Shown one piece after another: positions 21,207 to 39,973 of a stretch of DNA of 46,595 nucleotides. The stretch is taken from positions 1 through 46,595 of the forward strand of contig JAAUOP010000023.1 of assembly GCA_012034805.1 (NCBI GenBank), given 5' to 3'. A program made the position numbers and the translations under genes. This stretch comes from Synechococcales cyanobacterium CRU_2_2. GTDB taxonomy: Bacteria; Cyanobacteriota; Cyanobacteriia; PCC-9006; JAAUQQ01. Below the pieces are notes generated by a model. It worked only from the letters and a program-made list of their open reading frames with translations, ran no database searches and was not told where the DNA came from. The stretch's first letter is position 1, and the number at the start of each line of letters is the position of its first letter.

Positions 21207-22178
21207 TCAAGGGGTAGGCACTAAAAGTTCTGGCTTAAACGGTTGGCCTGACTTGAGAACGCCGTAGACCACTCGAATCAATTTGTGCATCACTGCGCCT
21301 ACCACTTGCATTTTATTTTTGCCCCGCGAACGCAATCCCTCGATCCAGGGTTGCAGTTCTTCACAACATCGAATGGCCGTTAACGCTGGAAAGTATAACG
21401 CGCGCCGCAGATGCTCATTGCCAATTTTGCATAAGCGTGTGCGCCCATGTACTGATGTACCAGATTCCTTCGCCTGTGGCGTTAGTCCCGCATAGGCGGC
21501 CAGTTGCCGAGCTGAGCCAAACACCGTCCAATCTCCGATTTCTGCCAAAATTTGGCTCCCACTTAAAGTAGAAATCCCCTTAATACTGGTCATCAACGTT
21601 AAGGCACTATCCAACTCTTTATACTTTTTCATGTGAGATGAAATCACCTGCTTCAATTGCGCCATCTGTTTTTCGATGAATTCAATATGAGCTTCGATAT
21701 CTTCATGTAAGGACTCTATTGTTGTTTCTAATCGGGTCTTTTCTTGACCAATGATCTGTTGTAAATCTTCCAGTCGCCTAGTCATTTGCTGTAGCTCTGC
21801 CGTCTCAGGCTTCGGCGGTATCCAAGCTTTCGGCTCCATCGTCTGACAGAACCGCGCAATCGTCGCACTATCCGCGCTATCTGTTTTAGTTCGTCTCAAT
21901 TCGCTTTGAGCAAACCCTGAAATACGAGCAGGATTGACCACACTGACTCGATGCCCTTGCTCATGTAGATATCGGGCGACTGCCTGCCCATAGGTGCTCG
22001 TCGCTTCTAAACAGGCGCTTACAGACTCGACCTCTTGCCCTCTTAGCCAGTCTGCTATTTCGGCAAAGCCACTTGCATCGTTCCTTACCTGTTTTTTCTG
22101 CGGCCTGCCACTTCCTTTCAATAGAGCTAGATGGAGCGTGGCTTTGCTCACATCAATCCCAAGGATACTTGCATTCAT
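21207..22178 (-). CDS. IS110-family transposase (DEDD recombinase)
   Basis: 323 codons. N-terminal DEDD domain: LGIDVSKATLHLALL (first Asp), ACLEATSTYGQAVARYLHEQGHRV (Glu) and RRTKTDSADSATIARF (third and fourth acidic residues). C-terminal Transposase_20 domain with the serine loop: TSIKGISTLSGSQILAEIG, FGSARQLAAYAGLTPQAKESG and LCKIGNEHLRRALYFPAL. It is a seekRNA/bridge-RNA-guided recombinase family. The ORF is complete and undamaged, so this copy may be active. A structured non-coding stretch upstream (22179-22430) is the expected place for its guide RNA. IS110 elements lack typical terminal repeats. Confidence 0.93.
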   Translation of the reverse strand: MNASILGIDVSKATLHLALLKGSGRPQKKQVRNDASGFAEIADWLRGQEVESVSACLEATSTYGQAVARYLHEQGHRVSVVNPARISGFAQSELRRTKTDSADSATIARFCQTMEPKAWIPPKPETAELQQMTRRLEDLQQIIGQEKTRLETTIESLHEDIEAHIEFIEKQMAQLKQVISSHMKKYKELDSALTLMTSIKGISTLSGSQILAEIGDWTVFGSARQLAAYAGLTPQAKESGTSVHGRTRLCKIGNEHLRRALYFPALTAIRCCEELQPWIEGLRSRGKNKMQVVGAVMHKLIRVVYGVLKSGQPFKPELLVPTP

Positions 22179-22239
22179 AAGAGCTCACCAGCCTAGAGAA
22201 ATGCCTGATACCAGTCCTATCCTCATCAATTCAGGGTGG

Positions 22240-22379
22240 CTACCAAACAGGAAGTCCCTTTGATACTTGTCCAGATTGGCTTGGCAGGGAGGCGGAAAAC
22301 AGAACCATTTCGGGATCTATAATCTGAGTACCAGCTTGAGCAGCGTCAGGGACTATCCAGATTCTCCGGCGGTTCTGTT
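22240..22379 (-). ncRNA. Candidate IS110 bridge RNA
   Basis: Upstream of the transposase on the minus strand two stem-loops can be drawn. The first has the arms AACAGAACC and GGTTCTGTT (22371-22379 and 22298-22306, 9 bp) enclosing about 64 bases, with an inner stem AATCTG/CAGATT. The second has CTGCCAA and TTGGTAG (22281-22287 and 22240-22246, 7 pairs with one G-U) enclosing 34 bases. Two internal-loop stems in the left non-coding end are the layout described for IS110 bridge RNAs. An 8-mer, GGGACTAT on the + strand, is shared between the first loop (22349-22356) and 22414-22421 near the presumed element end, as expected for a guide. Manual folding only. Confidence 0.5.
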
Positions 22380-22430
22380 ATCAGCTTAACGCTGATTCCT
22401 CCAATGATATGAGGGGACTATGTTCTCAGG

Positions 22431-22563
22431 TATGGGAGCGATCGCGTCTATGCCGATATTGCTGCGAAGAAGGCGATCGCAGCCGAAAGACAAAATCAGC
22501 AAATAATTGCGGGGGCGGTCGAGCTACGAACCTTAGAGCGATTTGAGGAAGCTGAGAAAAAGT
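22431..22563 (+). pseudogene. Interrupted coding fragment between two IS elements
   Basis: About 44 codons remain open from 22431 (YGSDRVYADIAAKK, IIAGAVELRTLERFEEAEKK) and are cut at 22564 by the ISAs1 end. Ala/Glu/Lys/Gln-rich and helical, as in a coiled-coil. Two HIP1 octamers lie inside. I do not recognise the family. It is probably a piece of a gene lost through IS insertions, but a chance open frame cannot be excluded. Confidence 0.35.
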
Positions 22564-23764
22564 CAAGGCTATTTCAAGTTAATCAGAGAAAGAAGATAGC
22601 TAAAGTTGTATGAGCAGTCTCTAGCCGCCTTGGCCATGTTAGAGCAGCCAGCTGCTCGATAGGCATTGAGTGCACAGTCCCGAGCGGCGGACATGCAATG
22701 GGGTAGCATTCCAGTGCGAATGCGAGAGGCATCCTCACCTTGGGAGACATCTCGGCAATAGTGAACCTTGTTTTCCACATGCCAATAGGCTCGAATACGG
22801 GCGGCAAGTTCGGCTGCCGATTCATTCAACGATGTGATGAAAAACCGAACAAAGGGTTTGTTGACAATGTACTTCCCCCCTTTGAGGACATTACGTTGAG
22901 ACTCAATGCGTACAAAAGTTCTAACGCCAGGCCAATCTTCTACCCCCTCGCAACTGTGCCCAATACTAATGGTGCGATGGTCGATGCGACCATGGCTCTT
23001 GACCGTCTCGCTGTACTGCTCTTGAGCGCTAAAAGCCGCTTCGACAGTGGTTCGGCGCTTTCTGTGGTTGTATTTGAGTGGGGCGAGGTAGTGGTTCTCA
23101 CTCTGAATGATCTGACGGCACAGTTTTTTTGGGGTGTTGAGCGCATCAAAGGCAAAAACGACGCCTTTAACTCCCTGTTCGGCCAATCGTTTGACAACCA
23201 AGGGTAAAGCCGTGATCTCATTGCTCTTGCAATCCACCGCAATCGACTCCAGGATTAGACCTCGCTCAACGATGTAGCTTATCACCAGTTGAATGGCGGG
23301 ATGGGACGGTGCTCGGCCATCAACCGCACCCACTTCGTAGGAGCCTCGAAGCACTTTGCCATCTATCGCCACGGTCTCACCTGCTTGAGGAGTCACCTCG
23401 AAAAAGCTCGATAAACAAGCGCCATAGGCTTGATAGTCGATGCCCAGCATCACTCGCCGTAAGGTGCTGTAGGACGGCAATCTATCCTTCCGGGGCTCAA
23501 ACAAGGCCACCAGGTCATCGTGATAGCCCTTTACCCAGTCACCCATCGCGTTGAGCCCTCGGCAACCGGCAACGACCGCTAGCGTGAAAATGCCAATGCA
23601 CAGGGTTTGCTTGTGCTGCTTACCGTTGCTGCCACGTGGATCGGATAAGCCTGCAAAGGCGTTCAGGCTCTCTAGCTCTTTCATCTCATCTAACTGATTC
23701 TCGTCCTCTCTGGTATCGTTTATCTCTACTCAGATTGCTCTCTCACTAACGTGAAATAGCCCTG
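22564..23764 (-). mobile_element. Complete ISAs1-family insertion sequence
   Basis: A 1201-bp element bounded by imperfect inverted repeats: the left end starts CAAGGCTATTTCAAGTTA and the right end, read inward, CAGGGCTATTTCACGTTA. The transposase occupies most of it; its stop codon lies inside the left repeat. No matching target duplication of 8-10 bp is seen at the outer borders, so the flanks have changed since insertion or the edges are off by a few bases. Confidence 0.85.
22569..23684 (-). CDS. ISAs1-family transposase
   Basis: 371 codons. Features of ISAs1/H-repeat DDE transposases: the N-terminal FAGLSDPRGSNGKQHKQTLCIGIFTLAVVAGCRG, PSYSTLRRVML, the first catalytic Asp in VAIDGKVLRGSY, VFAFDALNTPKKLCRQII (second Asp) and a C-terminal AYWHVENKVHYCRDVSQGEDASRIRTG with the Glu of HVENK. 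It is complete with no stop or shift, so possibly active. It is on the same strand as the IS110 transposase but the elements are separate. Confidence 0.93.
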   Translation of the reverse strand: MKELESLNAFAGLSDPRGSNGKQHKQTLCIGIFTLAVVAGCRGLNAMGDWVKGYHDDLVALFEPRKDRLPSYSTLRRVMLGIDYQAYGACLSSFFEVTPQAGETVAIDGKVLRGSYEVGAVDGRAPSHPAIQLVISYIVERGLILESIAVDCKSNEITALPLVVKRLAEQGVKGVVFAFDALNTPKKLCRQIIQSENHYLAPLKYNHRKRRTTVEAAFSAQEQYSETVKSHGRIDHRTISIGHSCEGVEDWPGVRTFVRIESQRNVLKGGKYIVNKPFVRFFITSLNESAAELAARIRAYWHVENKVHYCRDVSQGEDASRIRTGMLPHCMSAARDCALNAYRAAGCSNMAKAARDCSYNFSYLLSLINLK

Positions 23765-24942: not shown

Positions 24943-25030
24943 TAAAGCTCTCCTGCTATCAAATTTGTCGCAGACTAAATCTACCACGTTATTTTTCTAA
25001 AGCCTGTCTTTCCCAGAACCTAGATTTTCG

Positions 25031-25116
25031 GTCTAACGACTAAGATAAGCGGCGGCAGGCAGCCTTTGCAACCTCACTAGGATCTCTCGTCCGTCCGCTT
25101 CATCGACTTGTTAGCT
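25031..25116 (-). repeat. attC-like integron recombination site B
   Basis: 86 bp. On the minus strand: R'' AGCTAAC, then AAGTCGATGAAGCGGACGG, a loop with GGTTGCAAAGG, then CCGCCGCTTAT and R' GTTAGAC. The arms pair except for single unpaired bases: GATGAAGCGGACGG on the 5' arm against GATAAGCGGCGG on the 3' arm (extra G, extra A). Extrahelical bases on the 5' arm are what tells attC orientation, so it points along the minus strand. It begins 42 bp after the stop of the toxin gene, the usual cassette position. Confidence 0.72.
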
Positions 25117-25157
25117 GGCTTTCCCCACAGACTACCTCGGCTTACCTTTCACTAATA

Positions 25158-25652
25158 CTAAGGCTCTTGGGCAAGATCTAAAATACGCTGATATAACTGG
25201 GGGCTGACACGAAAACCACTCTGGTTGATCAAGGCATCCATAACGGGTTGAACTTGAGGGATGAGGATTCTTTGTTTAGCCACGAGCAAAATACCCAGAA
25301 TACCGATAATAGACAGCCCAAGCCGAATAGCTTCTTGTCGTCCCAATCTTTCATCAATGAGTAGGTCATCGGCTTGTAGCTCAAGGGCTAATGCAATGGC
25401 ATGGGCTTCTCCAGCATCCAGTCCCCGTTCTTGTTGCAGTTGGTCAGCAAGTTGAGAGTTGATGAGGGATTGGGTTTGAATCCAGGTCAGTTGGAGAACG
25501 GCTGAGATCGTGGGGTTGCTGGCTGCTGCCAGTTCGTTAGCAACCACATCAGGAATGACCACCGTTTGATAAATGGCTTCTAGCAACCAAAGGTGATGGA
25601 CAAGGGCAAGATTTGAAAGGGCAGAAGTATCGCTGACAACGATCATAGCCAA
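25158..25652 (-). CDS. DUF3368/PIN-like toxin of a toxin-antitoxin pair
   Basis: 164 codons. PIN-fold nuclease pattern: VVSDTSALSNLALV (first Asp), VIPDVVANEL (Glu), GLDAGEAHAIALALE and DDLLIDERLGRQEA (late acidic residues). PIN toxins cleave RNA, usually tRNA or mRNA. Its start overlaps the end of the upstream antitoxin gene by 10 bp, so they are translated together. All acidic positions are present, so it could be active. It is the last gene of the putative cassette before attC-like site B. Confidence 0.85.
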   Translation of the reverse strand: MAMIVVSDTSALSNLALVHHLWLLEAIYQTVVIPDVVANELAAASNPTISAVLQLTWIQTQSLINSQLADQLQQERGLDAGEAHAIALALELQADDLLIDERLGRQEAIRLGLSIIGILGILLVAKQRILIPQVQPVMDALINQSGFRVSPQLYQRILDLAQEP

Positions 25653-25882
25653 CCCCGATCGCGCAGATGTTGAATATCCTGCTCAAGGTCTTCCACGTCG
25701 TAGTGAACACAAATACCGCGATCTGCCAGCAGTTTTTGAAAGTCCATGATGTAGATTCCGGCAATTTTGCTGGCTCTGCCAAGGCTGATATAGTTTTGCT
25801 GGAAAAGCGCGATCGCCATTTCTCGGCGCAGGTCTGCTTCTGTGAGGGCTAGGTTATCAGGCAGGTCGATGGTAATTTGCAT
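25643..25882 (-). CDS. UPF0175-type antitoxin
   Basis: 79 codons. Starts with MQITIDLPDNLALTEADLRREMAIALFQQNYISLGRASKIAGI, the ribbon-helix and helix layout of UPF0175 proteins, which are usually partners of DUF3368 toxins, and ends with an acidic helix (VEDLEQDIQHLRDRGWL) that could neutralise the toxin. It likely also represses its own operon. The pair is common in cyanobacterial genomes and often moves horizontally. Confidence 0.85.
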   Translation of the reverse strand: MQITIDLPDNLALTEADLRREMAIALFQQNYISLGRASKIAGIYIMDFQKLLADRGICVHYDVEDLEQDIQHLRDRGWL

Positions 25883-26017
25883 GGTTTTGAGTCCGTTGAG
25901 TTGAATGATTGTTATTTCGCATCTTCGCTGATACCTTCGAGAAAAGCGATCGCTGCCGTATTGCCCGCCTCCCAGCCAGGAACGCTGAGTTCGAGGGTAG
26001 ATGGCAGAGAAAGCCCG

Positions 26018-29000
26018 CTAGCGTTTTAGCCACCACACCAACATCACTACCGCCAGCCCCACAGCAAACCAGAGATAAAATGGTTGATTCCTGGCGCGGG
26101 TTTGAGCGGTGCGAGTTTTTCGTTGATTGACTTGGCGTTCTCGATCATACCAATCGCTCAGGGATTCGGGTTTGGGGTCATCGCCAATGGAAGGCGCAAG
26201 GCGGCGTTGGGCAGGGATGATTTGATTGCTGCACTGACGAATGGCTTGATTGCATTGTTCGACCATGTGTTCGAGTTTGAGGTCTGCATAAATGGCTTCG
26301 GCTTGTTGGAAGTTGAGCAAGGCTTGACCAGGGTCATCCAGCTTGGCTTGAGCAAGTGCCATATTGAATAGCGAGGTTCCAACTCCCCAGCGATCGTCAA
26401 TTTTCTTTTGAATCGTCAGGGATTGTTGATAGTAAGTGATTGCTTGCCTATAATCTCCTGAAGAATTGTAGGCATTACCAAGTCCAGTTAAAGACTCTGC
26501 TTCACCACGTTTATAACCGATCGCCCGTTTTATTTCTAAGGATTGTTGGTGGTAATTAATTGCCTGCCTATAGTCGCCTAGGAAATCGTAGACATTGCCA
26601 AGACCATGTAACGAATTGGCTTCAAATTCACGATTACCAACTTTACGCTGAATAAGCAGTGCTTGGTGATAGAGATCAATAGCTTTGTGATAGTCACCTA
26701 ATGATCGAAAAATATTGCCCAAGTTGCATAATGAACCTCCTTCACCATCACTATCGCCAATGACCTGTCGAATTTCCAAGGATTGTTGATAAGCGGCGAT
26801 TGCTTTTTCATAGTCTCCTAAATCGCTGTAGACACTTCCAAGACCAGTCAAAGAACTGGCTTGACCTCTCTGATTACCAATCTCTTGATCAATAGCCAAG
26901 GATTGTTGATGAGAGATAATCGCTTGTTCGTAGTTCCCCAAAGAATAGTAGATATTGCCAAGACCATTTAAAGAAGCAGCTTCACCCTGCTTATGACCAA
27001 TTTCTCGCAAGATTTTAAGGGATTGCTGGTGGTAAGTGATTGCCTGTCCATAATCCCCTAAAGAATGATAAATATTACTAAGACTATTGAGAGAACCAGC
27101 TTCACCTTTCTTATTGTTGATTGAACATTCAATTACTAAGGATTGTTGGTGATAGGTAATCGCCTTTTCATAGTTTCTTGAAGAGCCATAGGCATTACCA
27201 AGAGCACTTAAGGCTGTAGCTTCGCCACTTTTATCACCAATAGTTCGTAAGATTTCTAGAGACTGCTTGTAGTAGGTGATGGCTTGTTCATAATTACCCA
27301 GAAAACGATATGCATTGCCGAGATTTCCTAGGCAAAGAGCTTCACCACGTTTATCACCGATCTCTTTCGAGATACCTAGAGCTTCTTGGTGGTAGGTAAT
27401 TGCTAACTTATAGTCATCCAGGTTATGGTAAACGCTGCCGAGATTACATAGAGAACCAGCTTCACCATGTTTGTCGCCGATTGCCCGTGAGATTTCTAAA
27501 GATTCTTGCTGGTAAGTAATTGCCTGACTATAGGAACATAAGGAATTGTAGACAGTACCGAGATTGCCTAGAGCAGCGGCTTGTCCTTCTAGATACTTCA
27601 GGTTAGTGAAGTGGTTATAGGCTTGTTGATGAGCAGTGACGGCCCTTGGGTAATCCCCCAAATTTTGCTGGAAATTGCCTAATCGCGTCCAAGCCCAGCC
27701 GAGATTTTGCGTTTCGGTGTCATCTGCCGGTTGCCATGCAGTGGTCAAGCGCTCATACAGCGGCAGCAACGATCGCCAGTGACCCGCCCGATCAAGCTGA
27801 TGGAAACAGCGATCAAGCAGATCATAAGCCCGCTGGTATTGCCCCAATTCACAAGCATGATAAAACGCTTCCAACGGTTCTCGGCAACTGGCGAGGGTGC
27901 CATCCCAAGGTTGGGCGTGACGGGTGTAAAAGGCAATGGCTTGCTCATGGGCAACGGTCGTTTGCGCTTGTTCCTCTGCGCCCAACTGCAAATATCGGGC
28001 AATTAAGGGCAAAAATCAAACCGCCATTCGCCATCAAGTTTTGATTCCTGCACAAAACTCCAGCGCGCCAAATAGCGCAACTGCTGGAGTTCCACCGCCT
28101 CATCCACCATTGCCTGTGCCATCCCCAGCCCAAACCCTTGTCGCACCACACTCAACCGCCACAGCAAAACCCGCAACCACGCCGGATGCAACCGCTCAAA
28201 ACTGGCATCCAACACTTTGCCCACACTCGCTTCCGAATCTCCCCGGTGGGACTCAACAATGCCCCGCAGCAGTTTTACCCCACTACGCCCCAACCGCAAA
28301 ATCTCCGGTTGCTCAAAATCTTCCTTTCCTGCCGCTTCAGCAAGTTCACCGCCAATGTCAACAGCAACGGGTGTCCATCCGCCGCTTCGACAAACGCTTC
28401 CAGATCCGCTTGCTCCCCAGTTACGCCCTCCCCTTGCAACAAAGCCACCCCTTGCTCCCGGTCTAATCCCCACAGGGGCAGCCAAGTCCACGCATTGGCC
28501 GATGGCAACTCCAGCCGATACTGACTGGTCAGCAGCAGACAGCCCCCACCACTCCGCCCCAGCCAGCCAGCCAGAAACTCGCCATAGGGCTGCCAGAGTG
28601 CCTCACTTTGGAACAACGTCTCCAGGTTATCCATCGCTAATACACAGGAATGCTGGATCAGATTGTTCAGCGACTCTTGCACTAACGCCGCGTCATCCAG
28701 TTGCTCGTAGGTTTCCCGCCGCTGGTCATACGCCACTTCCCCCACCAATTTGCGAATCACCCAGCGAGCAAAGGTGCCAAAGGCGATGGGTTCCTGAAAA
28801 TTGACCCACAACGGCTGACTCTCAAACCCAGAATCCGATGCGGTTGCCAAGATTTGCACCACCTTCGCCGCCGTTGCCGACTTGCCATAGCCTCCGGCTC
28901 CTTCCAGACCAATCACACGCAACTGCTGGGTAGCTAACCACTGCCGCAACTGCGTTTCTTGCGGGCGAGTCTGCCAGAGTTCATCCTTGGGCAACGGCGG

Positions 29001-29156
29001 CAAACCCTCATTCACCACAGAACTCAGGGCTTTGGCTCGTTGGGTGTAGTGAATCGTCTGGGTAATGCTGCCAATCCGAATTACGTTGGCTGTGACGTTC
29101 TGAAGCGCAATTTGCTGGGGCGTGGGTTGCTGAGGCGTGGGCTGTGGGTCAGTCAT
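26018..29156 (-). pseudogene. STAND (NB-ARC-like) ATPase with about 11 TPRs and a C-terminal membrane anchor, two frameshifts
   Basis: Three successive frames give a protein of about 1045 residues. Frame one (29156-about 28324): Walker A GLEGAGGYGKSATA near 84-97, Walker B CVLAMDNLETL near 171-181, a sensor-like LLLTSQYRL and a GLPL-like DGHPLLLTLAV. One extra G near 28323-28324 leads into frame two, a winged-helix-like part (LHPAWLRVLLWRLSVV). One extra base in the A5 run 28011-28015 leads into the TPR frame. That frame has about 11 tandem 40-residue repeats of the form GDYxQAITYHQQSLEI-IGDKxGEA-SL-NLGNxY, and ends in YLWFAVGLAVVMLVWWLKR, a membrane helix. STAND ATPases act as signal switches, often in phage defence or cell death. 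Domains are complete in order, so indel error rather than decay is plausible. Confidence 0.8.
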
Positions 29157-29160
29157 GAGT

Positions 29161-29619
29161 TCACTGTTTCTGAGTCAAATTGTCAAATTCCAAACTCTCT
29201 GCTTCCACATCTACCAGCAATTGCTGATCCGCTGCACCTGTTGCCTCTTGGCGTACATCTTTGGCTTTGATCCCCTTGCTCGTCTTAATGCCCACAAGCA
29301 TTTGCTGCACGCGCTCCGGCTCTGCTTTCTGGATCTCCGTGACGATCGCCGCTAGCTCTGCGCGAAAATCCTCATCCTCGACAAACTCCGCCTCTAAAAC
29401 TGTCTCTATCTTCCGCTGTGCATCTAGAGCATTTCCCTTCGCTGCCGCGATCGCCGCCAAATTTTCCTCCGTCTTCTTCCGTCCCTTAAAGCGGTTGGCG
29501 ATCGCTGTCCACAACTGCTCAATCAGCTTCTCCGCCGTTTTTCCCGCTGCGCTCTCGGCAAACTTCTGCGCCGCCAAACCCACGATTAGAGCCGTCGTAA
29601 TCGGTTCTGTCATCGCCAT
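29161..29619 (-). CDS. Helical partner protein of the STAND ATPase
   Basis: 152 codons, 4 bp before the STAND gene on the same strand, so probably co-translated. Almost entirely helical: ITTALIVGLAAQKFAESAAG then KTAEKLIEQLWTAIANRF, then a charged stretch (KKTEENLAAIAAAKGNALDAQRK) and DEDFRAELAAIVTEIQKAE. Similar N-terminal segments occur fused to NB-ARC or other effector proteins in cyanobacteria (from memory), so it may be a separate effector-associated domain linking the ATPase to its effector or membrane. No enzyme motif is visible. Confidence 0.6.
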   Translation of the reverse strand: MAMTEPITTALIVGLAAQKFAESAAGKTAEKLIEQLWTAIANRFKGRKKTEENLAAIAAAKGNALDAQRKIETVLEAEFVEDEDFRAELAAIVTEIQKAEPERVQQMLVGIKTSKGIKAKDVRQEATGAADQQLLVDVEAESLEFDNLTQKQ

Positions 29620-29754
29620 TCTCCCGTTAGGTGTTTCTTCTATTAAAACTCGTCGATCGCCCCCATGAAACGACTGCTGGAGCGATCTCTTCCTAAACGT
29701 TTTTGCACTGACTGATAACTTCTAAGAACGAGTGCAACACCTTTGTGCGAAGCC

Positions 29755-29839
29755 AGCTAACGGTGCGCTTGAGCGGCTGCAACCTGCTTCGCAATGCACC
29801 CAGAGCCTTATTCAGTCCGCTCCAAGCGAATTGTTAGAC
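29755..29839 (-). repeat. attC-like integron recombination site A
   Basis: 85 bp. On the minus strand: R'' GTCTAAC, AATTCGCTTGGAGCGGACTG, a loop containing GGTTGCAG, then CCGCTCAAGCGCACC and R' GTTAGCT. CGCTTGGAGCGGACTG on the 5' arm faces CGCTTGAGCGGCTG on the 3' arm: the same two extra bases (G, then A) as in site B. The AACAATTCG start is close to the common attC consensus (from memory). Same orientation as site B. Confidence 0.75.
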
Positions 29840-30129
29840 CGCCACGCCGCCAACAATCCCCAATCCAACCTTGCCACTCACAGCTTAACCCGAAACCACA
29901 ACCGCCTCCACAAACTGACTTCGCGGTGCTTTGAAACTGGCAAACTCGACCCAAGCCACCGTCCCAACCCACAACCATCGCGCCTTCACAGATCTCCATC
30001 GCGCCGCTTTGACGCTCACAGATCAACCTGAAACGACGAACCCAAAACGAGAAATCATCGCGGCGATGGAAAGCTCACAGATATGCTCTCTGCACCGTCT
30101 CGACTATCAAGTACGAAGCGGTCTAACTA

Positions 30130-30347
30130 TTAGTTTTTATGCACGATGCTTGATAACTCCCTCCTCCCGGTATTCTCAAGCGCTAGCGCCGTATAATCCC
30201 TGGCCATGACCTGTTATCCAGGCAATTCTGCTGGATAACACCTCTGATTGGGTATTATCAGGCAAGGCTGCATGATAACAATCCATTTCTCGGCATTATC
30301 CCGGCATCGCTGCCTGATAACATCCCCATAGAGGTATTATCGTGAGG
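30130..30347 (+). repeat. 41-bp palindromic-core repeat array, 5 copies plus a part
   Basis: Units of exactly 41 bases start at 30130, 30171, 30212, 30253 and 30294; a part starts at 30335. The best three share TATTATC, a GGCA-CTGC/GCTGC core and GATAACA, followed by 13 variable bases ending in GG. Each unit forms a small hairpin (for example TTATCCAG with CTGGATAA). The outer two units are degenerate. The last unit is broken by the MITE. Unequal spacer size, variation in the core and period 41 argue against CRISPR. Confidence 0.85.
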
Positions 30348-30349
30348 TT

Positions 30350-30440
30350 GGGAGCATGTCACTTTCTGGAGAGCATACCTGTCAAGCAGAGGCTGAAAGC
30401 ACGAGCTTTCGTAGTCATCTTAAAAAGTGACATGCTCCCG
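30350..30440 (+). mobile_element. Short MITE with 8-bp target duplication
   Basis: About 90 bp bounded by perfect 16-bp inverted repeats GGGAGCATGTCACTTT (30350-30365) and its complement (30424-30439), with an inner hairpin GAAAGC-ACGA-GCTTTC. GTGAGGTT occurs immediately left (30342-30349) and right (30441-30448), a target duplication. It is too short to encode a protein and so needs a transposase in trans from an element with the same ends. Confidence 0.88.
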
Positions 30441-30448
30441 GTGAGGTT

Positions 30449-35358: not shown

Positions 35359-35754
35359 ATGGCCACCGTTCTCATCGTCGAAGATGATAAGGCAAATATC
35401 TTGGTGTTCTCCAAAATTCTCAAAAAGCGTGCAGGGCTAGATGTCCGCGCGACGGAAGATGTGGAGGAGGTGGTTGAACTTGCCGATTCTGGCCAGATTG
35501 ACTTAATTTTGATGGATGTCGCCCTCTCCCGCAGTCTGTACAATGGCCAGTCGATCGATGGTATCAAAATCACCCAGATGCTCAAGGCTCGGGAGCGGAC
35601 CCAGCATTTGCCGATTATTTTGGTGACGGCCCATGCGATGCGGGGCGATCGCGAGAACTTTCTGGGCCAGAGCGGAGCCGATGACTACATTAGCAAGCCG
35701 GTGGTCGATCAGCAGGCATTTGTGGATAAAATCTTGTCGCTGATCAAAGCGTGA
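35359..35754 (+). CDS. CheY-like single-domain response regulator
   Basis: 131 codons from ATG 35359 (MATVLIVEDDKANILVF). Receiver domain: acidic EDD near 8-10, the phosphorylated Asp in LILMDVAL (Asp53), Thr in LVTAHAM and Lys in YISKPV. There is no output domain, so it must act by protein contact. The partner kinase is not in the window. The last 11 bp overlap the end of the convergent NACHT-pentapeptide gene. Confidence 0.9.
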   Translation: MATVLIVEDDKANILVFSKILKKRAGLDVRATEDVEEVVELADSGQIDLILMDVALSRSLYNGQSIDGIKITQMLKARERTQHLPIILVTAHAMRGDRENFLGQSGADDYISKPVVDQQAFVDKILSLIKA

Positions 35755-38700
35755 GCCCTGAGCCGGGTTGGGTCGGACTGAAAAGTTCGCTCAGGCCGGG
35801 GAGAAATTCGTCCGGGAGGGCGATCGCCTGCTCTAGCCCCCGCACCCCCTCAAGCCGCGTCGTCTCATCCCAGCGGACTCCCTGGAGCTGGGCCTGGGTG
35901 AGGTCTGCGCCGCTGAGATCTGCACCGCGTAAATCGGCTTGATGCAGCTTGGCGTGGTTCAAGTCTGCCAGACTCAAATTGGCAAAATTGAGGTCCGCCA
36001 GACTCAAATCTGCCGAGCTGAGGTCTGCCAAGCTCAAGTTGGCCTTGTGCAGCCAAGCATTGCGCAAATCTGCCTTGCTAAACGAAGCGCGGTTCAAGAT
36101 CGCCTCCTGCAACGACGCGCAGTTGAGGCTGGCGCTGCGCAAATCCGCCAAGCTCAAATCCGCCCGGTTCAAAATCGCGCCGCGCAAATCCGCCAAACTC
36201 AAATCCGCCAAACTCAAATCTGCGCCGCTTAAATCCGCGCCATGGAACAGCGCCCCAATGAGGTCTGCATTGCTCAAAAAGGCCTGAATTAGCGTCGCCC
36301 CGGTCAAAATGGCCCGACTGAGGGACACTCGCCGCAAATTGGCCTGACTCAAATTGACCCCATTCAAATTGGCCCCACTCAGATCCGCGCCGCGCAAATC
36401 AGCCTGGCGCAGGTCTGCACCGTTGAGATTCACGCCGCTGAGATCCGCGCCGCTGAGATTGACCTGGCGCAGATCCGTGCCCCGCAAATTGGCTCCGCTG
36501 AGGTGGACGCCGCTGAGGAAAGGGCCAACAATGTCGCTGAAGGCACTGGGGCCAATGCACTGACCTGCCTGGATAATTCGCAGCAGGCGATCGGGCGATC
36601 GCGCCATCGTCGTCCGTCCCGTTGGATAGAAAATAATCTTCTGCTTCAGTGCTTCGCGCACCCGCGCATAGCGATTGAGCTCCAGCAGCAAAATCATCAC
36701 GTTAAAGCCGGTATAGGCATCGACTTGCCGCTGACCGAGGGGTTTTTCTCGATATTGCTGTTGCTTTTTCAACTGCTGCATTTTTCGTTGGGGCAACGTC
36801 GGCGGCTCCTCATCGATGATTCGGCCCGTAGCCCAGCGCAAATAAAAATCCTGCAGCCGTTGGAACAACGCCTCCGGTGCAAAACTCGGGCTTTGATCCA
36901 ACATCACCAGCAAAAACTGGACAATTTCCGGGGTGAGGCCACCGTAACCGAGCAAGTCATAGATTTCCCAGTCCACGTCAGCCGTTTCGGTGCCTGATGG
37001 ACGGAGTTTGGCCCATTCTTCTAGGCCGACGCGCAGTTGTTCTGCGAACAGAAACTGACTGAAATGGCGGTGGCTGAGCGTCAGCACCGCCATGTGCTGA
37101 CTGGAGCGGGGGGATTGGATCGTCGCGATCGGCAAAGGCATCAGCGATGGCTGAATCACCAGGGTGCCTGGGAACGGTGCCGCGAGATCGGCATCCTCCT
37201 CCCCTCCATTCAGGGACTTGCGACCCAGCAGGGAAGGGTGGGTGAGGCGTTGCTCGATCGCCGACAGCGGCACGGTTTCGGTTCCCAGCTGAACACTACA
37301 CAAGCCTGCTTCTCGCAACATCACTCGCAGCTGTTCGGGCTTGAGTCCCAAGGTCACTAGCTCCGACTCCTCAATCACCCAGTCCATCAGCCGTGTGAAA
37401 AACTTCACCTTGGCCCCGGCTTCGCTGGTGACTTCGAAGGCATTGGCGGGCAGTTCTCCCTTGTAGAACATGGCTGCTAAAAGGCCCAAAAACAGAGGCT
37501 CCTGGCTCAGATCTCGGATGCTCTCTGGCAAATAGGGATGGTTTAAGAACTCCTTGAATGCCTCTGGGCGATAGCCCGTGCGTTTGGCCAACTGCTGCAC
37601 CCAGCTTTGCCGCAGGGCATCGTCCATTGGCAAGATTTCTAGACGGGTGATGTTGTCAGGGACTTTCAGCTGCCGATCCAACAGGGACAGGGTTCGCCCC
37701 GTCAGCAAAATGCGGTGCTCTCGCTCTAGATAGCCGATGCAACCACGCTGGAATTGGCTCACCTGCTCGAGAAATTGTTCGAGGGTCGCACCCGGAGACT
37801 GGCTGAGGCCAAGAGTATCCACGCCGTCGATGATAAACAGAAAGCGGACGTTGGCAGCGGCAAGCCAGTTGGGATCATCTTGGGTGAAGTCCCGATCGAT
37901 CGCTTCCCCCAGCCACGTTTCAAAGCCGTTACTGCGCGAGCCATTACCGCGCGAGCCATTACCGCGCGATCGATGGCTGACATCACCCGGTGGCGACACA
38001 TCCCGCAACTGTACCAACACCGGGGTCCAACCGGGATGGAGGTGAATCCTCGCCCAGTCGGCAAACATCCGACAAAAGGTACTTTTACCCCGTCCGGCCT
38101 CCCCTTCGATAAACAGGATTTGCTCTGGGTTCCGTTCGTCGTCTAGCCAGCTATGGACACACTGATGCAGCGGCAAAATGGGGTATCCGGGTCGGGGTTT
38201 GCTATCAGGGCCGAGGGCTCGAGATTGGGGGGGGACGTAGAGATCTTGCAGGGTGAAGGCGTCGGCAAAGAGGCCTTCACCCTGCTCACACTGAATCACT
38301 TCATCGAGATAGGTGTCGATGCTGAGGTACTTGCGCAGAGCCGCACGTCCGCCGATGCGGTACCACTCGATCAGCCGCTGGACGCGTTCGCCTGAGTTAT
38401 TTAATGGGGCGCGCATCCGCTGTTCGGTGAGCTGGGCGGTGCGGTGGGCGATCGCCTGGGCGGCTCCTTCTTTCAGGCCCAACTGGGTCAGTCGGGTCGC
38501 AAAAAGAGGGTTAAAGGCCTTGGCAAGTTGACTCGAAGGAAAATCAATCAGCGCCAAGCGAACATCTTCGTCGGCTAAGACCAGCTGGCCCAAATCCTGC
38601 AGCCCTTCTGCGACCCGAGGTGACACCGGGTCTTGCCCCACTTGCTTGAGCCAAGGCCACAGCTTGGGACTCGACAAAATCGTTTTGATGCTTTCAAGAT

Positions 38701-39028
38701 AGGCCGCCTGGCTGACCAAACAAACGCACTGGCCCAGGCTGGGTTCCTGTTGGGTCTTGTCTCGGTAAAACTGGAGCAAATCCCCAGCCACCCGCTCAAA
38801 GGGAATGGTGAGCGCCATAAATTTGCTCAACGGCAAATTAAAAATATCGAGCAGCGAGGTGATTTGGCCCACCATCGGCCCCAAGGCCTGGGACTGCGGG
38901 CCTTCGTCTTGGAGTGTGGCGGCCAGCCTCAGCACTGTCTCCGCAGCATCCATCCCCAAGGGCACCGCCTCACCTGCGATCAGCCCCTTGATATCCGTGG
39001 TTAAAAATTTCCAGATTCGCGTTGACAT
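35744..39028 (-). CDS. NACHT-type STAND ATPase with C-terminal pentapeptide repeats
   Basis: 1094 codons from ATG 39028 (MSTRIWKFLTTDIKGLI); the frame stays open to 39193 but that would overlap the divergent DUF4058 gene start. N-terminal helical domain (1-260) of unknown type. NACHT ATPase: Walker A EGEAGRGKST near 308-317, Walker B LFIIDGVD near 397-404. A helical arm follows, then about 43 pentapeptide repeats (A-D/N-L-S/R-x) from about 840 to 1050 that fold as a right-handed beta helix. A 15-bp in-frame repeat (SRGNG)3 sits at 354-368. Such proteins are common in cyanobacteria; some relatives act in phage defence, but the role here is unknown. Confidence 0.87.
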   Translation of the reverse strand: MSTRIWKFLTTDIKGLIAGEAVPLGMDAAETVLRLAATLQDEGPQSQALGPMVGQITSLLDIFNLPLSKFMALTIPFERVAGDLLQFYRDKTQQEPSLGQCVCLVSQAAYLESIKTILSSPKLWPWLKQVGQDPVSPRVAEGLQDLGQLVLADEDVRLALIDFPSSQLAKAFNPLFATRLTQLGLKEGAAQAIAHRTAQLTEQRMRAPLNNSGERVQRLIEWYRIGGRAALRKYLSIDTYLDEVIQCEQGEGLFADAFTLQDLYVPPQSRALGPDSKPRPGYPILPLHQCVHSWLDDERNPEQILFIEGEAGRGKSTFCRMFADWARIHLHPGWTPVLVQLRDVSPPGDVSHRSRGNGSRGNGSRSNGFETWLGEAIDRDFTQDDPNWLAAANVRFLFIIDGVDTLGLSQSPGATLEQFLEQVSQFQRGCIGYLEREHRILLTGRTLSLLDRQLKVPDNITRLEILPMDDALRQSWVQQLAKRTGYRPEAFKEFLNHPYLPESIRDLSQEPLFLGLLAAMFYKGELPANAFEVTSEAGAKVKFFTRLMDWVIEESELVTLGLKPEQLRVMLREAGLCSVQLGTETVPLSAIEQRLTHPSLLGRKSLNGGEEDADLAAPFPGTLVIQPSLMPLPIATIQSPRSSQHMAVLTLSHRHFSQFLFAEQLRVGLEEWAKLRPSGTETADVDWEIYDLLGYGGLTPEIVQFLLVMLDQSPSFAPEALFQRLQDFYLRWATGRIIDEEPPTLPQRKMQQLKKQQQYREKPLGQRQVDAYTGFNVMILLLELNRYARVREALKQKIIFYPTGRTTMARSPDRLLRIIQAGQCIGPSAFSDIVGPFLSGVHLSGANLRGTDLRQVNLSGADLSGVNLNGADLRQADLRGADLSGANLNGVNLSQANLRRVSLSRAILTGATLIQAFLSNADLIGALFHGADLSGADLSLADLSLADLRGAILNRADLSLADLRSASLNCASLQEAILNRASFSKADLRNAWLHKANLSLADLSSADLSLADLNFANLSLADLNHAKLHQADLRGADLSGADLTQAQLQGVRWDETTRLEGVRGLEQAIALPDEFLPGLSELFSPTQPGSGLTL
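37925..37969 (-). repeat. 15-bp tandem repeat, 3 copies, in the NACHT gene
   Basis: Unit GCCATTACCGCGCGA on the + strand, three in-frame copies (first with two changes), encoding SRGNG repeats in the loop after the Walker A strand. In-frame like the accD repeat, and also 15 bp. Confidence 0.9.
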
Positions 39029-39121
39029 GGGCCAGTGCAGCTCCGGTGGCACAAGCGGACAATCCGCCTCTAATCCAGTTTGCCCAAGCGGACGCCGAGC
39101 TAAACTGGGAGAACGTTCTGG

Positions 39122-39973
39122 ATGCCGCCCATGCTGCTCCTCGATCACTTTCGTCCGCCCCTGAGCACCCGTCGCCACTGGCATTCCTTCCATAATGCCT
39201 GGGCGACCTATTTGGCCAGCGATCTCAACCAGCGATTGCCGGAAGGTTTCTTTGCAGAACCCAATGTCCAGTTCGGCACTGAGGTCCAGTTCGGCATTGA
39301 GATTGATGTGGCAGCCTTCGAGGAAAATAGCGAAGCGTTAACGTTGACACCTTCACTCGCCTCACCAGATGCATCTGTCCCAGGCTGGCAGCCGCCGACT
39401 CCGACCCAGACGATCGCCTTTGAATCCAGCGATGCGATCGTCGAGGTCAGCATTCTCGGGAGCGAGGGTGGGCCAAACTTGAGAGCGGCGATCGAACTCG
39501 CTAGTCCAGCCAACAAAGATCGTCTCCAACAGCGCAACGCCTTTGTTTCAAAATGTGAGACTTACTTGCGCGAGGGGATTGGGTTGGTGATTGTGGATGT
39601 CGTGACCACACGACAGGCAAATTTGCATCAGGAACTGCTGGAGCGTTTCGCGGGAGGCTCGGCGGTTGGCTCCGCCAACCTCCAACGGATCGCACCCTCT
39701 AGTCAAGGCTCTGAGCAGCCTCACGCTGACCAGCCTCCCGGTTTTCGGCTCGATGGCTCATATGTAGGGGGTTACCGCAGTGTGATTGATTGCAGCTCAG
39801 CCGAGCGATCGCAACCCAGTGCCGCAGGATCGCTACAAATTTGGTACGAGTGCTTTGGGGTTGGCGAGGCTCTACCCACGCTGCCACTTTGGCTGGGGCA
39901 GCAGTTGTGCCTACCACTTCTACTCCAGGAAGCCTATGCCCAAACTTGCCGATCGCAGCGCCTAGGAAACTGA
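39122..39973 (+). CDS. DUF4058 family protein
   Basis: 283 codons. Typical DUF4058 features: HWHSFHNAWATYLASDLNQRLPEGFFAEPNVQFG at the start and IELASPANKDRLQQRNAFVSKCETYLREGIGLVIVDVVTTRQANLH in the middle. The family resembles the Uma2/PD-(D/E)xK-like nuclease group in layout (my inference), but a full active site is not evident. Cyanobacteria often carry many copies. Divergent from the NACHT gene across 93 bp, and convergent with glycerate kinase 20 bp away. Confidence 0.82.
   Translation: MPPMLLLDHFRPPLSTRRHWHSFHNAWATYLASDLNQRLPEGFFAEPNVQFGTEVQFGIEIDVAAFEENSEALTLTPSLASPDASVPGWQPPTPTQTIAFESSDAIVEVSILGSEGGPNLRAAIELASPANKDRLQQRNAFVSKCETYLREGIGLVIVDVVTTRQANLHQELLERFAGGSAVGSANLQRIAPSSQGSEQPHADQPPGFRLDGSYVGGYRSVIDCSSAERSQPSAAGSLQIWYECFGVGEALPTLPLWLGQQLCLPLLLQEAYAQTCRSQRLGN

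Follow-up and report, generated by a model that had tools for sequence, protein, structure and literature searches.

The window analysed here, a contig of 46,595 nt (C57), comes from a cyanobacterial draft genome of 5.3 Mb in 332 contigs that is 88.9% complete. Its minus strand carries two attC-like sites of the same orientation, at 25031-25116 (86 nt) and 29755-29839 (85 nt), both of which carry AGCGGAC in their 5' arm and a GGTTGCA loop element. An earlier note, made from the sequence, had described them as bracketing an integron-like cassette, and the coordinates, lengths, orientation and motifs that it gave are all correct, the sites being minus-strand attC. Two transposase-like ORFs (323 and 371 aa) lie near the integron flank at 21207-23684, probably of IS110 and ISAs1 type as judged by eye. 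On the other side, at 35744-39193, an ORF of 1149 aa appears by eye to be NTPase-like with C-terminal pentapeptide-like repeats.

Two attC sites in the window

We built a covariance model (R2) from six attC-like sites of other cyanobacterial genomes, each close to an intI gene or a fragment of one, with both window sites left out of the training set. It matched exactly twice in the 46.6-kb window, on the minus strand and at the coordinates above, with 70.6 bits (E 1.7e-18) for the attC of cassette 2 (25031-25116) and 64.9 bits (E 8.5e-17) for that of cassette 1 (29755-29839), so that both sites pass a covariance-model check of the kind which the earlier note had proposed. Covariation was strong in an alignment of eight attC sites: both sides had changed in 19 cells, compared with an expectation of 6.7. 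Both window sites also leave the same two bases unpaired, as had been observed before: a G and an A are extra-helical on the R''-L'' arm, for example GAT[G]AAGCGG[A]CGG against GAT-AAGCGG-CGG in 25031-25116. Their position on this arm agrees with the published definition of extra-helical bases (PMC2727003).

The terminal boxes had been described as of RYYYAAC/GTTRRRY type. The AAC/GTT core is indeed kept in the R''/R' boxes of both sites, but the strict consensus is broken in one box of each, namely R'' of 25031-25116 (AGCTAAC) and R' of 29755-29839 (GTTAGCT), and a strict scan of the window recovered neither attC. These outer deviations are due to box-swapping, as AGCTAAC and GTTAGCT are mutually complementary boxes of one cassette. 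In a simple hairpin scan the two attC scored 12.1 and 14.8, with 20 shuffles of the window reaching up to 12.0 and two other window matches at 12.4 and 15.2; an Rfam search of the window gave no relevant match. Plain DNA folding of the integrated sites, a check that had also been suggested, gave no significance (z -0.5 to -1.5), which is expected because the R boxes of an integrated site come from different cassettes. When the attC of both cassettes were rejoined as circles they did fold as expected: the R stem paired perfectly, the spacer stayed unpaired and the L stem was bulged. Judged from their sequences, 25031-25116 and 29755-29839 are genuine integron recombination sites (attC).

Cassette boundaries and the cargo of cassette 2

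A circular cassette that integrates between G and TT splits its attC, and the last R' bases are left at the 5' end of the cassette; box-swapping is the signature of cassette insertion. Both cassettes of the window begin with a box that complements the R'' of their own attC. In cassette 2 (25037-29760, minus strand, 4724 nt), R' GTTAGCTGGCTT complements R'' AAGCCAGCTAAC exactly over 12 nt, and in cassette 1 (29761-30126, minus strand, 366 nt), R' GTTAGACCGC complements R'' GCGGTCTAAC over 10 nt. Cassette 1, which is without a convincing gene, starts at the attI crossover described below and ends at the crossover within attC 29755-29839. The R' remainder after the last cassette (25029-25036, minus strand) is TTAGACCG. 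The box that follows the attC of cassette 2 is GTTAGACCG and belongs elsewhere; a third exact copy of GTTAGACCG, at 30119-30127, marks the start of cassette 1. The 4.7-kb block is identified by these boundaries as a predicted mobile gene cassette bounded by attC. The original reading of an integron cassette is thereby borne out by the left-out model, by the R''/R' complementarity and by the recurrence of the toxin-antitoxin and attC end in other genomes, and its large size, which had been called unusual, is confirmed at 4,724 nt.

All genes of cassette 2 lie on the minus strand. A 152-aa ORF (29161-29619) without Pfam or PADLOC match precedes a STAND gene of NB-ARC-TPR type (26018-29156) that is broken across three overlapping frames. 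These are an NB-ARC/STAND ATPase N-terminal part (28275-29156; NB-ARC E 7e-5, just short of the Pfam cut-off), a middle part in another frame (28003-28491) and a TPR-repeat part (26018-28012; TPR_12 E 1.6e-92). The breaks fall near 28.3 and 28.0 kb, where the overlap of ORFs in different frames suggests a frameshift; the split gene is probably either a pseudogene or a draft error. The STAND-ATPase block announced in the earlier note is thus present, although its split had gone unnoticed. Stretches on contig C292 of the source genome (G000) are 68-75% identical to parts of cassette 2.

A UPF0175-type antitoxin gene (25643-25882; PF03683 E 3e-22) and a DUF3368 PIN-type toxin gene (25158-25652; PF11848 E 1.9e-16; PADLOC candidate PDC-S70, E 2.4e-63) are adjacent and constitute a predicted toxin-antitoxin pair. 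The toxin gene lies directly before an attC, as stated previously, but the site concerned is 25031-25116 rather than the one labelled 'site B'. A search for related cassettes, again a suggestion of the note, found the pair together with attC in six other genomes (G140, at 92%, G036, G043, G164, G238 and G047), and in two of these the alignment reaches exactly to the crossover. With the same terminal boxes, the pair forms a cassette of ~1.0 kb between two attC in G238 and one of ~2.1 kb in G043. Since the pair and its attC occur elsewhere alone as a ~1.0-kb cassette, cassette 2 resembles a toxin-antitoxin cassette with 5' cargo that may have been replaced or enlarged.

An attI upstream of cassette 1

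The two attC sites are not the whole structure: a third crossover, a 366-nt cassette and an upstream attI had been missed. The DNA directly before cassette 1, at 30127-30345 on the minus strand, is an array of ~220 bp, made up of about five imperfect palindromes of 31-33 nt that recur with a period of ~42 bp and are followed by the crossover G30127|T30126 (TAATAG|TTAGACC). The array is 81-82% identical to two further copies in the source genome, on contigs C234 and C102. The C102 copy abuts an intI remnant, the adjacency that is lacking at the window, and the C234 copy flanks another cassette with its own attC. Identity between the window and these copies is lost just past G|TTAG, no more than 4-5 nt beyond the crossover. 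We also modelled the sequence of the last attI unit and crossover (R3), with the window excluded from training; this model gave one significant match in the window, at 30121-30171 (E 1.5e-5). Several relatives, including G001, G002, G019, G028, G038 and G055, have similar arrays that separate intI from the first cassette.

Other methods were less informative at the window copy. A half-site matrix from other genomes found 2 sites in the attI (shuffle mean 0.6, maximum 4), the criteria of a strict palindrome finder were too harsh to be of use there, and Tandem Repeats Finder returned nothing on the array. With the matrix and the palindrome finder this weak, the identification of the attI rests on homology and position; the window attI is a divergent subtype. 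A MITE-like inverted repeat (30350-30441; GGGAGCATGTCACTTT...AAAGTGACATGCTCCC), with copies 93-96% identical in the family relative G002, occupies the flank at which an intI would normally lie. In G002 there are also attI-like palindromes on C71 (5405-5490), where a glpD-like gene and another ORF converge; these are either a relic or units that exist also outside integrons.

Could the cassettes have been inserted at an ordinary attG-like genomic site instead of an attI? The first cassette boundary has no attC upstream, and IntI is reported to recognise attG sites (cited in PMC12901181). We consider this very improbable and dropped it, as it is contradicted by the attI homology: the ~215 bp upstream of the crossover have homologues both next to an intI remnant and at the attI position of C234. 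We give next to no credence to a reading without integrons, in which the sites are chance hairpins or REP-like repeats flanking a genomic island. Hairpins by themselves are common, and the C71 palindromes of G002, which resemble those of the window, have no attC nearby; however, leave-out E-values of 1e-17, box-swapping, exact crossover boundaries and attI beside intI in other genomes all speak against it, and the success of the R2 leave-out model refutes it.

intI in the source genome

No intI match was found on the window contig, and tblastn of six IntI proteins against the window gave no match, consistent with the integrase-free window noted before. With at least two attC and no intI, the window would be classed as a CALIN. 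It had earlier been likened to attC clusters that lack an integrase, which holds for the missing intI but is incomplete: the presence of an attI makes the window an integron platform without intI, not merely an attC cluster. The search for IntI elsewhere in the genome, which had been recommended, returned five intI fragments from the draft and no complete gene. At least three of the five overlap in residues and must therefore be separate copies. An intact intI could be missing from the assembly because the draft is fragmented and incomplete. The source genome has 16 attC matches at E <0.001, on 12 contigs, and ~11 attI-like sites.

On contig C207 of the source genome (L100, 4435-5006), group II intron pieces (group-II-D1D4-3 and D1D4-1) lie beside an attC with a disrupted R'' box; introns that target attC are known, and the C207 pieces resemble them. 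At three attC-like sites, on contigs C187, C200 and C314 (L102, L108 and L109), the usual R'' box is replaced by a shared upstream end, GTCTCCCCATAA, which would fit insertion of one and the same element at each.

Dispersed attI platforms in relatives

We surveyed 59 relatives, with the source genome counted in. attC matches were present in 46 of the 59, and intI above the TIGR02249 cut-off in 20. Six attI-like sites were found in the closed genome G028, together with a single intI match above that cut-off. Across 25 attI loci, every nearby attC match (23/23) is downstream of the attI and on its strand, and in ~30 pairwise comparisons of attI loci the upstream homology stops at +2 to +15 of the crossover, the exceptions being attI pairs with an identical first cassette. 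In G028, one cassette (TTAGCCCTCAGCGCCC...) begins at the crossover of three attI platforms and, by BLAST matches, is also found at two further cassette junctions. Two attI regions of Calothrix sp. NIES-3974, at 1.17 and 3.44 Mb and so 2.3 Mb apart, share 97.6% identity between -328 and +10. At one platform intI is full-length; the other keeps a 22-codon remnant of the gene and is followed by four attC. An identical first cassette is found on three platforms of two scaffolds in Leptolyngbya sp. PCC 7375, where segmental duplication is also possible because the homology crosses the crossover. Two relatives (G039 and G047) gave no R3 match despite many attC and intI matches, indicating that the palindromic attI type is not universal. 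No empty insertion site was found in relatives by flank synteny, as the flanks are not conserved there. So far as can be read from DNA, closed or named genomes carry several dispersed attI platforms each, mostly without intI.

These platforms could be ordinary decayed integrons, each once a complete intI-attI-cassette unit, in which intI was deleted or broken here and the other attI copies decayed independently, with no service in trans. Remnants of intI still abut the attI on contigs C139 and C102 of the source genome, in G026, on C201 of G002 and in Calothrix (1169k), and intI pseudogenes are common (PMC2426708). On the other hand, many attI have no detectable intI remnant (the window, C234, two on C322, C133, four in G028 and three in G001), and near-identical attI copies, as well as a shared cassette at several platforms of one genome, suggest recent copying or exchange. 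We put the chance of independent decay at a little under even. The strongest rival to service in trans is that duplicated integrons decayed, though both may hold.

Interpretation

The window is very probably an integron platform that has no integrase gene of its own, arranged attI-cassette-cassette on the minus strand. The order would be attI (30345-30127), the 366-nt cassette with attC 29755-29839, and the 4,724-nt cassette with attC 25031-25116, the whole being one of the ~11 attI-like platforms of the source genome. IntI would have inserted each cassette through the folded bottom strand of its circular attC, with crossover between G and TT. Beyond what the sequences themselves show, namely the attC, the attI, the cassette boundaries, a draft with no complete intI and several platforms per genome in relatives, the step of interest would be the use of such platforms in trans. 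We postulate that an IntI whose gene lies elsewhere in the cell feeds, or once fed, the window platform, that the array may now be frozen, and that the toxin-antitoxin pair could stabilise it. A plasmid-borne attI still works once IntI is supplied (PMC8191803), which makes service in trans plausible. More broadly, many cyanobacteria may have a distributed integron, where a single IntI, or none of the cell's own, acts on many scattered attI, cassettes move between platforms and the palindromic attI array spreads as an intI-less module; we advance this tentatively, at a little under even odds.

The attI is multi-copy and mostly apart from intI in closed or named genomes such as Calothrix sp. NIES-3974 and Leptolyngbya sp. 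PCC 7375. If service in trans is true, integrons are miscounted, because some CALINs may be live platforms; if the distributed integron is true, several chromosomal contexts receive cassettes, as opposed to one array behind one promoter. With R3 an attI model from outside class 1 becomes available; the sites of cassette expression and the spread of attI become directly testable questions. No description of multi-copy attI platforms or of palindromic attI in cyanobacteria was found in the literature searched, with subscription journals and preprints outside its scope.

Comparison with known systems

The textbook integron has one landing site (attI) beside its integrase. IntegronFinder 2 likewise describes typically one attI close to the integrase, with attI poorly described outside class 1 (PMC9024848). 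Our window resembles a CALIN (PMC9024848) in having attC and cassettes with no intI nearby, but differs in that an attI is present and that there are several such platforms per genome. Cyanobacterial integrons and a Cyanobacteria-specific attC model have already been published (PMC8352920, PMC2426708). The attC architecture is shared with the sedentary chromosomal integrons of Cyanobacteria (PMC8352920), and cyanobacterial intI is widespread (20 of the 59 genomes surveyed here); in contrast to a single intI-attI array, we find many small dispersed platforms. Delta-attI-type cassettes of class 1/2 integrons (PMC12901181) also have extra attI-derived sequence away from intI, though mostly as short attI fragments that replace attC inside an array, whereas here attI regions of 200-300 bp lie at separate chromosomal places. 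Finally, attI1 with its accessory direct repeats (PMC8191803) likewise has extra repeated elements beside the crossover, which in our case form an array of palindromic units, with the ~42-bp period given above, as putative IntI-binding units.
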